Below are positions 7,427 to 11,591 of a stretch of DNA of 20,715 nt, piece after piece. The notes under the pieces are model-generated. The model did not search any database, was not told where the DNA came from, and was given only the letters and a program-made list of their open reading frames with translations. Source of the stretch: a virus. Positions within the stretch are counted from its first letter, which is position 1. Each line of letters begins with the position of its first letter. The position numbers and the translations under genes are program-made. The stretch spans positions 1 through 20,715 of the IMG/VR virus record IMGVR_UViG_3300007734_000446; one strand, written 5' to 3'.

Positions 7427-7732
7427 TTACTCTATAAGAGCAAGCGCCTCTTCAACACTCCTCGCCACTCCTGCAATTCCTCCGCAATATTGCACTCGCC
7501 AAATAAAGTTTTCCTGTTCTTTGGTTAGCCGTCCTGTTTTGGTTTTAACCTCAACGGCAAGAAATGATCCATCTGGCGCAATGCCTATAATATCGCTTGA
7601 CCCTCTGCACAATCCAAACTGAACCGGCCTGCCGTACTTGTCTGGCAATGCGCCGGTATTATTGCGCCAAACCATGCAACCGGCCTCCGATAAGGCCAAC
7701 ATGATCTCGTGCATGAGGGATTGTTCAGTCAT
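7427..7732 (-). CDS. VRR-NUC domain nuclease
   Basis: This is a 101-residue stand-alone VRR-NUC domain of the PD-(D/E)XK nuclease superfamily. Visible motifs are an N-terminal helix MTEQSLMHEIMLALSEAG, WRNNTGA, CRGSSDIIGI with the catalytic Asp at about residue 47, and AVEVKTKTGRLTKEQ with the catalytic Glu-x-Lys. The full length matches the minimal phage version. These enzymes cut branched or structured DNA in replication and recombination, which fits the place between the helicase/radical-SAM genes and the primase. The ATG at 7732 overlaps the upstream stop as ATGA. Confidence 0.9.
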   Translation of the reverse strand: MTEQSLMHEIMLALSEAGCMVWRNNTGALPDKYGRPVQFGLCRGSSDIIGIAPDGSFLAVEVKTKTGRLTKEQENFIWRVQYCGGIAGVARSVEEALALIE

Positions 7733-9129
7733 TTCGGTTTTGGCTCCCCTTTCGGAAGAATCATTCCAGGCGATTCAAGTAGGTTTGGCTTGAGGTAATA
7801 AGAAACACCTCTAGCTTTGCACTGACGCACAACATCCCATACCCATTCAAAATCGACGGCCTTTTCCGGGACGTAGCCTTCAGGTTGATTAGTTGCGGTT
7901 TGAGCACCAATCACCACCAGATCGCACCATGACAAATCATTAAATGTAATCGGCTCAAGCATCGGCTCCAAAGAGATCCACTTAACACCAGTAGTTTCAA
8001 AGGACTTCATCTCGCGTTCAACACGATCAACATCTGCCTGCTTGATAACGGACGCACCAAACCATGCTTTTGGTAGTCCCTCCAGCATCTTGTACCGATT
8101 AGGCCACTTGGTAAGAAACAAATATTCCCACTCTGGATTATCCATGCAGGCTTCAAATATCCGATGAATCCATTCATCGGGGACCCACTTACCGAATACG
8201 TCAGCCATCGAGCCAACAAATACACGCCCGTCGGATGGGTTATCGCTTTTCGGCACTTTGGTGTTCCTTGGAGCTTTCAGCCGGTATTCATAAAATGCCG
8301 GTTCAAATCCAAATGGATAATTACCTGCCATCTGGCCATTGTGAGTGATGGCTCGCGCATAACAAAAGTCGCAACCATGTAAACATCCAGCGATCGGGTT
8401 CCACGTCCATGATGCCCATTCGACATTGTCATTGGTGCTATTGAATTTTGTTTTTTGCGGTCTTGGTATTTCTTTAACCTTGCCATCTACTGTTATCACA
8501 GGAACCATTTCGCGCTGTGGTTTTGATTCTGGTGATGGCGCGTTAGCTTTAATTGTGGCTGATGCAGCCTCAACCTTTGCCATCGCCTCTTTAACCGCCA
8601 TCTCGCCATTAATCACCGCCTCCTTCAGCTCAGGAGCCTTGTCGAGCGTCTTGGCTTCGGATTCCCATCTCTCGATGGTCGGCTTGCTGACTCCGATCTC
8701 GGAAGCGTATTGTTTGGCGGATGGAATAACTCCATCAAATGATGGAGTTTTTGGCCTTCCCTCTGGCTTCACTCCTCTCATCTCCCTCAGCTTCAAGTAG
8801 AGCACTTTCCTTTCGTCTGGGCTCATGTGACGGCGGTGCAGATTGAGTCGCATCACATAGCCAGGATAGTCGGCAGCATAGGCTTCGCCTAGCGTAGTGA
8901 ACCGCTCTGTGGCGCCAGTGACAAGCAATGCCCGCAGACGGTTACGGCCATCAAGCAAATAACCATCATGCGTCAGCACCACCGGGATCTCTAATCCCTG
9001 ATTCCCGATAGAGTCGCACAAGTCCTGAAATTCCTGTCCTGTAATCAACGGGAATAGGTCGGCGGCTGGATGAACGCCAGCCAGATTGTAGGCTTCGACG
9101 CATTCTTCAATTGTCGGTTCTTCATACAT
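7729..9129 (-). CDS. ParB-like / radical-SAM-like fusion (phage Gp37/Gp68 family, DUF5131)
   Basis: A longer frame opens at 9246, but the start at 9129 (MYEEPTIEEC) is preferred: AAGGAG lies upstream and the ATG overlaps the TcmP stop. The 466 residues hold three parts. Residues 1-80 are ParB/sulfiredoxin-like, with DGYLLDGRNRLRA around 55-67. Residues about 95-185 include an HTH-like segment (SAKQYASEIGVSKPTIERWE). Residues 230-466 are the Gp37/Gp68 domain (PF07505) with WNPIAGCLHGCDFCYA carrying C249-x3-C253-x2-C256, the 4Fe-4S spacing of radical SAM enzymes, then FVGSMADVFG, LFLTKWPNR, WFGASV, WISLEPML and VIGAQT. Family members are usually coded beside a TcmP protein, as here. Reaction and substrate are unknown; the ParB part suggests a DNA-directed job. 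Confidence 0.85.
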   Translation of the reverse strand: MYEEPTIEECVEAYNLAGVHPAADLFPLITGQEFQDLCDSIGNQGLEIPVVLTHDGYLLDGRNRLRALLVTGATERFTTLGEAYAADYPGYVMRLNLHRRHMSPDERKVLYLKLREMRGVKPEGRPKTPSFDGVIPSAKQYASEIGVSKPTIERWESEAKTLDKAPELKEAVINGEMAVKEAMAKVEAASATIKANAPSPESKPQREMVPVITVDGKVKEIPRPQKTKFNSTNDNVEWASWTWNPIAGCLHGCDFCYARAITHNGQMAGNYPFGFEPAFYEYRLKAPRNTKVPKSDNPSDGRVFVGSMADVFGKWVPDEWIHRIFEACMDNPEWEYLFLTKWPNRYKMLEGLPKAWFGASVIKQADVDRVEREMKSFETTGVKWISLEPMLEPITFNDLSWCDLVVIGAQTATNQPEGYVPEKAVDFEWVWDVVRQCKARGVSYYLKPNLLESPGMILPKGEPKPK

Positions 9130-9895
9130 TAGAAAGCTCCTTCTTTGTCTTAAACAAAGCGTGAACCAAATTGGCAAAAGCATTGGTCTCGGTCTTGAAC
9201 CATGCGCCAACGACTTCGTATTCAGAATCCTTGAACGCCTGAGCAAATGCTTTTTCTGTTTGCGTTCGCCATTTGTCCGGCTGATTGACTAGATAGGCCC
9301 ATTGCGCGGCGTCCCCCTTAAGCGTGACCAAATAAGCGTCATGCCACCATTGCAGCAACGCAAGCTGCGCATTGAGGTGGTCATACCACACGTTCCTTTG
9401 CTCTTGCGGCAGCCTCTTAAGGCCACCCACATTGCAACCTAGCGTTGAAAATACGGTGGTTAATTGCGGGGCATACCGAAGCGCATCAGGCAGCGCCCAA
9501 TCGTTGATGGTATTTGGGTCATTGGAAACAAATAGAACTGAGTCCTTGTCCCAAATAGGGATCATATTGTGCGAGTCCCCATGAACGACATTTCGATGCG
9601 GAATGGCTAGCTTAAGGGTTTCTATTGAACCCGGTGTCTTCTCGTAAAAAACCGATCCCGTCCTAATGCCTTTTGATTCTAGCCATAACAAATGCCGATC
9701 AATAATCCCCGGACTTGTGGCTGTGCTGAATTCACTTGATACCCCATCGCCAGCAGTGCAATCTACAACTGCAAATGTTCTATCTTTGAATTTGATCGAA
9801 TGAACGCCAGCGGTCATACCTAGAATTCGATCCAAAGCGCTATGTTTTCCAGGTGTACGGTGTGACTTACCCACTCCACCTTCAATTTTTGCCAT
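9122..9895 (-). CDS. tcmP: Three-Cys-motif partner protein (TcmP-like)
   Basis: This 257-residue protein matches the TcmP pattern, the usual neighbour of Gp37/Gp68 three-Cys proteins: an N-terminal SHRTPGKHSALDRIL, then a Rossmann-like core with FAVVDCTAGDG (residues 41-51), an acidic strand end FYEKTP (E85), VVHGDSH (104-109) and LFVSNDPNT (121-129). The layout resembles class I methyltransferases, with a glycine-rich SAM-loop-like motif, but no activity is proven. The C-terminal half is helical and rich in Trp. The start is ATG 9895 with GGAG six bases upstream; a TTG at 9907 is less likely. Its stop overlaps the partner's start by eight bases, so the two are made together. The ribosome binding site is perfectly complementary to a sequence in the leader. 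Confidence 0.82.
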   Translation of the reverse strand: MAKIEGGVGKSHRTPGKHSALDRILGMTAGVHSIKFKDRTFAVVDCTAGDGVSSEFSTATSPGIIDRHLLWLESKGIRTGSVFYEKTPGSIETLKLAIPHRNVVHGDSHNMIPIWDKDSVLFVSNDPNTINDWALPDALRYAPQLTTVFSTLGCNVGGLKRLPQEQRNVWYDHLNAQLALLQWWHDAYLVTLKGDAAQWAYLVNQPDKWRTQTEKAFAQAFKDSEYEVVGAWFKTETNAFANLVHALFKTKKELSNV

Positions 9896-9980
9896 TTCTA
9901 ACTCCAATAAAAAAGCCGTCTCACTTTCTCCAGTAGCAATTGGGCGAGTGAACCCTCGGAGTTAGTAAAACGGCTTTCCT
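9896..9980 (-). promoter_or_regulatory. Pseudoknot-like leader that can hide the tcmP ribosome binding site
   Basis: In the leftward transcript AAAGCCGT (9977-9970) pairs with ACGGCTTT (9919-9912), extendable to 11 pairs with two G-U, and the 3' strand runs into six U. Between the arms lies CTAACTCC (9965-9958), an exact 8-base complement of GGAGTTAG (9905-9898), the tcmP ribosome binding site just past the 3' arm. The two helices therefore cross, as in an H-type pseudoknot, with 4 and 3 bases joining them. Smaller stems (TCACT/AGTGA, CGAG/CTCG) can form in the loop. The rest of the gap, 9981-10023, holds a short hairpin (GGCT..AGCC, 9997-10010). It could act as attenuator, translational switch or autoregulatory site. 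Confidence 0.6.
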
Positions 9981-10023
9981 AAAAGTACTCATATCAGGCT
10001 TGCTACAGCCCAAACCAATTATA

Positions 10024-10185
10024 TCACCGTTGAAGCATCTCCCTCAGCGACTCAGCCCTTGCTGTTGCCTCACTTGTGCCATCGGCCATTTTGATAGCAA
10101 CCCGCTCCAAAAACGACTCCAATTGCTCAAGCGTTGCCATCGGATAAGCATTTGTTAGCCATAGCTCATCATCATACGCGCTCAT
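10024..10185 (-). CDS. 53-residue protein of unknown function
   Basis: The start at 10185 (MSAYDDELWLTNAYP) is chosen because it overlaps the helicase stop as ATGA; an in-frame ATG 78 bases further up would lie deep inside the helicase gene. The product is helical (ATLEQLESFLERVAIKMAD, then TARAESLREMLQR) with no cysteine pairs, signal peptide or membrane segment. I do not recognise a family. Tight coupling to the helicase suggests an accessory role in DNA metabolism, which is inference. Confidence 0.6.
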   Translation of the reverse strand: MSAYDDELWLTNAYPMATLEQLESFLERVAIKMADGTSEATARAESLREMLQR

Positions 10186-11591
10186 AAATACTGCCTCGCT
10201 TCCGTAAACATGGCGGGTGTATGCTTTGTTCGCATCCGTGCGGCGTAGGTCATTACCGCCCATTCAGCGGGCTTGCTTAGTCCGCGCCGTTTACCAAGTT
10301 CAACCAAGTCCCTAAGCGTTCGAGCTTGCGCCTGCTCTTTCTTTTTGGCTCGTCTGGCCGCTTCAATGTCGATGGCTTGAAGCTCGCCATCTTGGTACTG
10401 AATCTCTCGGTTCTCAGTAAGCAATGATTCTGAGCAAACCGGGCACTCTTTCGGTCCAGGCCTAAATACTGCATAGCATTTTGGACACTGCTTGATCGTT
10501 GGTTTGTCATTATTTGAGGAGCGATTTTTCTTAGGATCGGGATTCAGGCTCCATTCACGCTCATCATCAGGCAGCCCATGCCTTTGCCAATTGCCAACGT
10601 GATCCAGAATAATCAACGCAGGCTTTCCATCTGCCGGTCTAAATCCGCGCCCGTTGCCCTGCATCCAGATAATCAATGATGCTGTTGGTCTGAGCCATTG
10701 AACCGACTCAATTGCAGGAACGTCTACGCCCTCGATCAGCAGCTCCACGTTAGTCAGAACTTTGGTTTCTCCTGACGCTATCCTCGAAAGTATGGCCTGC
10801 CTCTCATTTGACGGCGTTGTGCCGTCCATATGCTCGGCTTTGATGCCTTTTGCGTTATACGCCTCGCAAACGTGTTCGGCGTGCTTGATTGTGGCGCACA
10901 TGACCACGCAGCGTTTGCCATTGGCATATTTCAAATAATGCTCAACCGCATCGCCGGTGACGGTTGGCCTATCCATGATCTTCTCAAGGTCATTGGCTGC
11001 ATAATCGCCCATGCGCTCTTTAATGCCTTCCATGCTGACCTTGGTTTCTGTTCCGTAGAGGCGATAAGGACAGAGATATCCAGACTGAATGAGATCTCCT
11101 ACCGATGGCCCGATCACCATATCTTCAAAAACGTCTGCCAATCCTTTGCCGTCAGTGCGCTGTGGCGTTGCCGTAAGGCCCACAATAAGCGCCTTTGGAT
11201 AGGCTTCGATAATCGTTCGATAAGTGTTTGCCGCTGCTCGATGCGCCTCATCAATGATGATGAGTCCAGGCTCCTGTATCCGATCCAGTCGCCGAACAAG
11301 CGTTTGCACCGATGCCACCTGTACCGGCGTTCGCGTCATGGTCTTACCGGCGCAAATGACGCCATGCTGTAGCTTCTGGGCCCAAAGCGCACGACTGGTC
11401 TGAGTTAATAGCGTGTCACGATGAACGCAAAACATGGAGCTGATGCCCTTGGATGCCGCCGTTGCCATCATGTGAACCGTCAGCGCAGTTTTACCCGCGC
11501 CTGTTGGGGCCACCATCAAAACGGATTTGTGGGAATGAAGGGATTGGCGGGCGGCTGCTATAAGGTTGTTTTGATAGGGTCTTAACTGCAT
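10182..11591 (-). CDS. Superfamily II DEAH-box DNA helicase with C-terminal zinc ribbon
   Basis: This 469-residue helicase shows the full SF2 set: LRPYQNNLIAAA at the N-terminus, Walker A APTGAGKT (28-35), DEAH (114-117) in LIIIDEAHRAA, GLTATPQRTDG (138-147), then in the second RecA domain VEGVDVPA-like LLIEGVDVPAIE and QGNGRGFRP (motif VI). A CPKC...CPVC zinc ribbon follows near residues 365-390, then a basic helix. It resembles phage UvsW/RadD-type helicases that remodel recombination or replication intermediates using ATP. The ATG at 11591 overlaps the methyltransferase-like gene by ten bases; a GTG at 11603 is an alternative start. Confidence 0.88.
   Translation of the reverse strand: MQLRPYQNNLIAAARQSLHSHKSVLMVAPTGAGKTALTVHMMATAASKGISSMFCVHRDTLLTQTSRALWAQKLQHGVICAGKTMTRTPVQVASVQTLVRRLDRIQEPGLIIIDEAHRAAANTYRTIIEAYPKALIVGLTATPQRTDGKGLADVFEDMVIGPSVGDLIQSGYLCPYRLYGTETKVSMEGIKERMGDYAANDLEKIMDRPTVTGDAVEHYLKYANGKRCVVMCATIKHAEHVCEAYNAKGIKAEHMDGTTPSNERQAILSRIASGETKVLTNVELLIEGVDVPAIESVQWLRPTASLIIWMQGNGRGFRPADGKPALIILDHVGNWQRHGLPDDEREWSLNPDPKKNRSSNNDKPTIKQCPKCYAVFRPGPKECPVCSESLLTENREIQYQDGELQAIDIEAARRAKKKEQAQARTLRDLVELGKRRGLSKPAEWAVMTYAARMRTKHTPAMFTEARQYL

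Follow-up and report, generated by a model that had tools for sequence, protein, structure and literature searches.

A phage leader RNA that is probably one copy of a family of pseudoknotted promoter-RNA-terminator units

What is the role of a structured leader that stands in front of a putative methyltransferase gene in a phage genome? The leader lies on the minus strand of the window, i.e., the whole 20,715-nucleotide stretch analysed here (IMG/VR virus record IMGVR_UViG_3300007734_000446, positions 1 to 20,715). The initial annotation regarded it as a tcmP leader whose pseudoknot-like structure masks the ribosome binding site of the gene, and considered a SAM-type riboswitch, an autoregulatory operator or a C4-like antisense system. 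The parts of the locus are the following.

10018..10026, minus strand: putative extended -10 promoter element TGATATAAT; its hexamer TATAAT starts 17 nt before the pairing segment (offset -17)
9996..10011, minus strand: 5' hairpin GGGC-UGUAGCAA-GCCU, found as a match to the motif descriptor; the 5' end of the RNA is probably at the base of this hairpin
10000..10006, minus strand: GUAGCAA, 5' strand of the predicted 7-bp loop-bulge (pseudoknot) helix, a perfect complement of 9939-9933
9912..9977, minus strand: three-tier main hairpin (MFE fold)
9977-9964/9925-9912, minus strand: outer stem of the main hairpin (MFE fold)
9977-9970 with 9919-9912, minus strand: stem AAAGCCGT/ACGGCTTT, with CTAACTCC inside it (sequence)
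9961-9957/9932-9928, minus strand: middle stem CUCCG/UGGAG (MFE fold)
9955-9952/9945-9942, minus strand: inner stem GGGU/GCCC (MFE fold)
9933..9939, minus strand: UUGCUAC, bulge 3' of the innermost hairpin and 3' strand of the predicted loop-bulge helix; the equivalent helix is paired in 36 of 36 relatives
9958..9965, minus strand: CTAACTCC, the anti-RBS segment of the initial annotation; its CUCC belongs to the middle stem
9909..9914, minus strand: U6 run, 3' end of a putative intrinsic terminator (sequence)
9898..9905, minus strand: SD region GGAGTTAG of the next gene, predicted to be partly paired with the upstream ACUUU, not with CUAACUCC
9122..9895, minus strand: gene of a 257-aa protein with a putative methyltransferase fold (the "tcmP" of the initial annotation; structure-model matches)
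7729..9135, minus strand: gene of a ParB-like/DUF5131 (radical-SAM-like) protein (PF07505, E 1e-35; TIGR04471 sub-threshold)

The letters on which the masking proposal was built are indeed there. All eight bases of CTAACTCC (9965-9958, minus strand) can form Watson-Crick pairs with the SD region GGAGTTAG (9905-9898), and this 8-base complement, the stem of 8-11 pairs and the six U are all where they had been placed. As to the two connections, said to be 4 and 3 bases long, the first is indeed 4 nt; the other measures 6 nt with the 8-bp stem and 3 nt only if the stem is extended to 11 bp. A perfect 8-bp SD complement arises in 0.9% of dinucleotide-shuffled leaders (P=0.009, post hoc), and among ~24 other upstream/start regions in the window the longest SD complement does not exceed 7. 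For a single feature chosen post hoc, this complementarity is mildly unusual.

Comparison with related leaders speaks against the masking helix. In L001, the sole close homologue of the window leader that was found (91% identical), CTAACTCC is replaced by CCGACTCC and GGAGTTAG is unchanged; two of the eight pairs are altered without compensation, giving a G-U pair and a mismatch. The covariation check proposed for this helix in homologous leaders thus came out negative. The longest SD complement is 8 bp in the window only, 6 bp in L001 and 5 bp in two sister elements that precede ORFs (the second copy in G015, and L016), where 5 bp is the chance level of the shuffles. In the predicted nested ensemble the probability of the masking helix is zero, and forcing it costs ~9 kcal/mol. 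The lack of compensatory change in L001, the absence of the helix from the sister elements and the position of CUCC in an internal stem argue against the proposed masking, and the anti-RBS helix was rejected as a conserved feature (it is not kept in L001, in the second G015 copy or in L016). As a separate observation, the predicted fold brings 9910-9885 together with 10000-9975, where the SD (GGAGU) is weakly paired to the upstream ACUUU; in a read-through mRNA this pairing could be an alternative cover of the ribosome site, and its bases are mostly kept in L001.

The leader is predicted to be strongly folded (MFE -34.7 kcal/mol, z -3.4 versus shuffles). A pseudoknotted structured RNA had been claimed, and the pseudoknot itself is borne out by the comparison; the helix had been drawn wrongly. 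The helix that is found instead joins the loop of the 5' hairpin (10011-9996; GUAGCAA) to the bulge at 9939-9933 (UUGCUAC) and crosses the outer stem. Between the window and L001, GUAGCAA/UUGCUAC changes to GUAGCUA/UAGCUAC, i.e., two distant substitutions compensate each other. Most substitutions in the main hairpin preserve pairing as well, and two break pairs of the outer stem. A 23-codon ORF that runs through the leader (MSTFRKAVLL...) was taken as non-coding, with no good SD upstream; window and L001 differ in it by six non-synonymous and two synonymous codons. A likeness of GGGCTGTAGC and GGGTTCACTCGCCC to pieces of a tRNA was also followed up, and ARAGORN found no tRNA.

Relatives of this structure were collected from IMG/VR in two scans. 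The first used the outer stem pattern only (AAAGCCG...ACGGCTTTTTT) and gave 37 distinct members; the second used a different internal motif and gave 94 further viral stretches, nearly all of them with the loop-bulge helix, which is part of neither search pattern. More than 100 phage sequences of IMG/VR have a common architecture: a -10 box 16-19 nt ahead of the pairing segment, a GUNNNNN loop, an NNNNNAC bulge and a terminator. A perfect loop-bulge helix of 7-8 bp is present at the identical topological place in 39 of 39 sequences (the 37 members, the window and L001), nearly always as GUNNNNN/NNNNNAC. The loop of a member forms on average 7.05 bp with its own bulge, versus 4.56 bp with the bulge of other members. 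In an alignment of 36 members (A4), the whole structure is 99.8% paired, helix 1 is paired in 100% of cells, and so is the loop-bulge helix, in which 57 double changes and no breaks were counted; all three of its variable positions change by double substitution only (in 18, 22 and 17 sequences), these counts being inflated by the relatedness of the aligned sequences. As a control, sliding the helix partners by 1-3 columns lowered the paired cells of the 36 members to 34-55%. A motif descriptor matched 76 places in 1.34 Mb of loci, the window leader included, versus one in shuffled sequence; it is the shuffled count that represents the background rate, as many of the loci had been fetched for carrying the RNA.

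The distance to the promoter is similarly uniform. Of 101 distinct members, 92 have upstream a TAnnnT hexamer that agrees with the consensus in 4 or more of its 6 letters, 87 of these hexamers starting 18 or 19 nt before the pairing segment (-19 or -18), versus 22 of 101 in shuffles. In the six sequences in which an ORF follows directly, the -10 hexamer is at -16 to -19 and the ATG follows 12-16 nt after the U-run. The bulge is only 13-21 nt upstream of the U-run, and in every member the three-tier hairpin is predicted to be a very stable terminator. In the largest subgroup, further noncoding sequence begins within ~25 nt of the U-run, leaving scant room for another promoter.

How well does the window itself fit into this family? 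With covariance model R1, which was built without the window, the leader is the best match in the window, with a weak score (16.5 bits, E 0.02) that is in part owed to the stem by which the first set had been retrieved. Since this match is weak, the membership of the window is based on the loop-bulge helix, the compensatory change, the promoter distance and the descriptor. Indeed, the window has the 7-bp GUNNNNN/NNNNNAC helix, the -10 spacing and a three-tier hairpin directly before a U-run. Further copies were found by the model in related phages, and these had not been fetched by the stem pattern: the L001 phage carries a second copy (G015:9034-9134, 39.8 bits, E 2e-8, GUUGCAC/GUGCAAC), and in L016/L017, a phage with a 75%-identical helicase, a copy is located directly after the VRR-NUC gene (33 bits, E 2e-5, GUGGAAC/GUUCCAC). 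ORFs also follow two more divergent members, in L318 and L487.

The genes that follow these RNAs are diverse. Judged from reading of the translations rather than from profile matches, their products are deoxyribosyltransferase-like in L016, a small phage protein in G015, unknown in L318 and HNH/AP2-like in L487. Several members are located ~40-150 nt downstream of phage tRNA genes. In the large subgroup the next 100-450 nt are noncoding, in one case with a Betaproteobacteria-1 RNA directly downstream of the family member (L054:309-425). Two other downstream noncoding types were tested and had no Rfam match. Because the downstream neighbours of the sister RNAs differ, the RNA is not a switch specific for tcmP, and is unlikely to be one for any other single gene.

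In the window, the leader forms the 5' edge of an accessory-gene cassette (10034-7735) comprising the leader, the methyltransferase-fold gene and, as its last part, the ParB/DUF5131 gene. The cassette is missing in L014 and L019, phages that are otherwise closely similar and have VRR-NUC directly behind the helicase operon; in this respect it resembles a moron insertion. The product of the 257-aa ORF has no match in Pfam, PHROG or NCBIfam (the last at E<=10), and a protein search of genomes and cultured phages gave no match either. Its AlphaFold2 model (pLDDT 75.5) has SAM-dependent methyltransferases as best PDB matches (RlmJ 6qe5, E 6.6e-7). The label "tcmP" (three-Cys-motif partner) thus lacks profile support, and what can be said is that the fold is methyltransferase-like. 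No such leader precedes the homologues that are 53-54% (L025-L028) and 35% (L030) identical to the protein.

Searches for a known counterpart were negative. For the window, Rfam 15 gave no match at the gathering threshold, and at E<=10 the region 9700-10200 matched nothing but two irrelevant eukaryotic families, in agreement with the initial statement that no known family is recognised; the suggested check against the SAM-II, preQ1 and C4 models returned no match even at that threshold. In cultured phages, blastn with the leader yielded short chance matches only, and blastn with four members and the window no full-length match. An exact 15-mer search of IMG/VR retrieved the known homologue and chance matches only. 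A scan of 84,980 bacterial species genomes with the pattern of one subgroup gave three matches (L161-L163), which have no GU..AC loop-bulge helix and look like chance. A limited search of the open-access literature revealed no description of such a phage RNA.

Phage small RNAs are a known kind, and we could not place this architecture among the known ones. The put RNA of HK022 is a promoter-proximal element with two adjacent hairpins in phage operons, as is the element here. It is a cis-acting antiterminator whose targets are terminators farther downstream, and it is not known to carry a U-run itself, whereas the present element ends in its own terminator. Betaproteobacteria-1 RNA (RF02932) and int-alpA RNA (RF02996) are candidate phage noncoding RNAs as well, but they differ in consensus and fold, and neither model matches the RNA itself. 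GOLLD and ROOL are likewise structured noncoding RNAs from environmental sequence, some of them in phages; however, they are large ornate RNAs forming multimers (PMC12286853), whereas the RNA of this family is ~100 nt long and has no Rfam match.

Several explanations of the leader have to be weighed against these data. A tcmP-specific leader in which CTAACTCC masks the SD, SAM-riboswitch-like or autoregulatory, would account for the exact 8-bp complement and would suit a downstream protein that looks like a SAM-dependent methyltransferase. It is very unlikely, as comparison of the sequences largely refutes it: besides the broken helix, the paired CUCC and the missing SAM-type Rfam match discussed above, homologues of the protein as close as 54% do without the RNA, and the sister RNAs precede unrelated genes or noncoding RNA. 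We give almost no credence to an antisense RNA of the C4 type (P1/P7 c4) directed at the translation start of the gene behind it. The layout is alike in principle: C4, too, is a structured RNA that shares an operon with the target behind it and is complementary to an SD, it measures ~80-100 nt, and it is located upstream of phage genes and has loops able to pair elsewhere. However, the leader has no match to RF01695 at E<=10, SD complementarity is not conserved, and a 5' hairpin followed by a three-tier hairpin with an intramolecular helix differs from the three stem-loops with a' and b' loops described for C4 (PMC5320573).

It is highly improbable that the leader simply terminates the upstream operon, as an ordinary intrinsic terminator whose loop is oversized, everything else being coincidence. 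A GCCG/CGGC stem with U6 does stand directly after the upstream operon, and terminator-then-SD junctions are common in phages, but such a terminator would have no use for a fixed promoter spacing or for a covarying 7-bp loop-bulge helix, and the descriptor matches 76 places versus one in shuffles. More serious, although in our judgment still unlikely, is a generic attenuator or antiterminator acting in cis, in which the loop-bulge helix would form just before the polymerase reaches the U-run and would set passage downstream. The placement of the element directly after a promoter, the short distance from bulge to U-run, and the gene (in six sequences) or noncoding RNA close behind argue for it; the lack of a conserved alternative antiterminator pairing, the functionally unrelated downstream genes and the very stable terminator hairpin of every member argue against it.

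We consider it probable that the leader is one copy of a family of structured phage RNAs that forms a portable promoter-RNA-terminator unit. The predicted fold, the 7-bp helix, the fixed distance to the putative promoter and the U-run are established by comparison of the family members. A sigma-70 promoter with an extended -10 would drive an RNA of ~100 nt, in which the 5' loop (GUNNNNN) would pair over 7 bp with the bulge (NNNNNAC) and so close the molecule into a compact, pseudoknotted (kissing) fold. As its two ends would be tucked in, this RNA may be a stable small RNA, most transcripts presumably being stopped at the U-run of the intrinsic terminator and the downstream gene being expressed through read-through. 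We give about an even chance to the view that most transcripts stop there and yield a stable small RNA with a function in trans. Because noncoding sequence or an ATG follows the U-run closely, read-through must play a part, and the RNA may not be purely stand-alone. A more far-reaching proposal, which we make tentatively and hold to be rather doubtful, is that the family is a widespread class of phage RNA, missing from the catalogues, in which the 5' loop docks into the terminator hairpin of the same molecule via a variable, almost always perfect 7-bp helix. Such an RNA could act either in cis on RNA polymerase (termination/antitermination) as a portable expression module of accessory genes, or in trans, where the variable nucleotides would serve as an address.

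If the family reading holds, a small RNA unit that is absent from Rfam 15 is common among environmental phages, with a pseudoknot covariation strong enough for immediate modelling and testing. The unit borders accessory genes and stands next to phage tRNA genes, settings in which the control of expression is poorly understood. Its variable 7-bp helix offers an unusually clean handle for break-and-restore mutation, the family definition lets annotators find the unit, and a plausible but wrong riboswitch reading of the leader is corrected.

Some minor observations concern the surroundings of these elements. A U-run followed by ATTG(CCC)GGAG and an ATG is a recurring phage junction. In unrelated cultured Acinetobacter, Pseudomonas and Klebsiella phages (L258-L262), a U-run is followed by ATTGCCCGGAGAAA and a nearby start codon; these loci were rejected as family members, being ordinary terminators without a pseudoknot. 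A second conserved-looking noncoding stretch, of several types, stands directly after the RNA in L045:1200-1480, L048:11560-11960, L168 and L170. Homologues of the 257-aa protein (35-93% identity) adjoin a DUF5131 gene in the loci seen, and in four of the loci (L025:2546, L026, L027:2511, L028:2564) a CsrA-like gene (MLVLSRKVNEVLVINYG...) precedes the methyltransferase-like homologue, its end overlapping the start codon of the latter.
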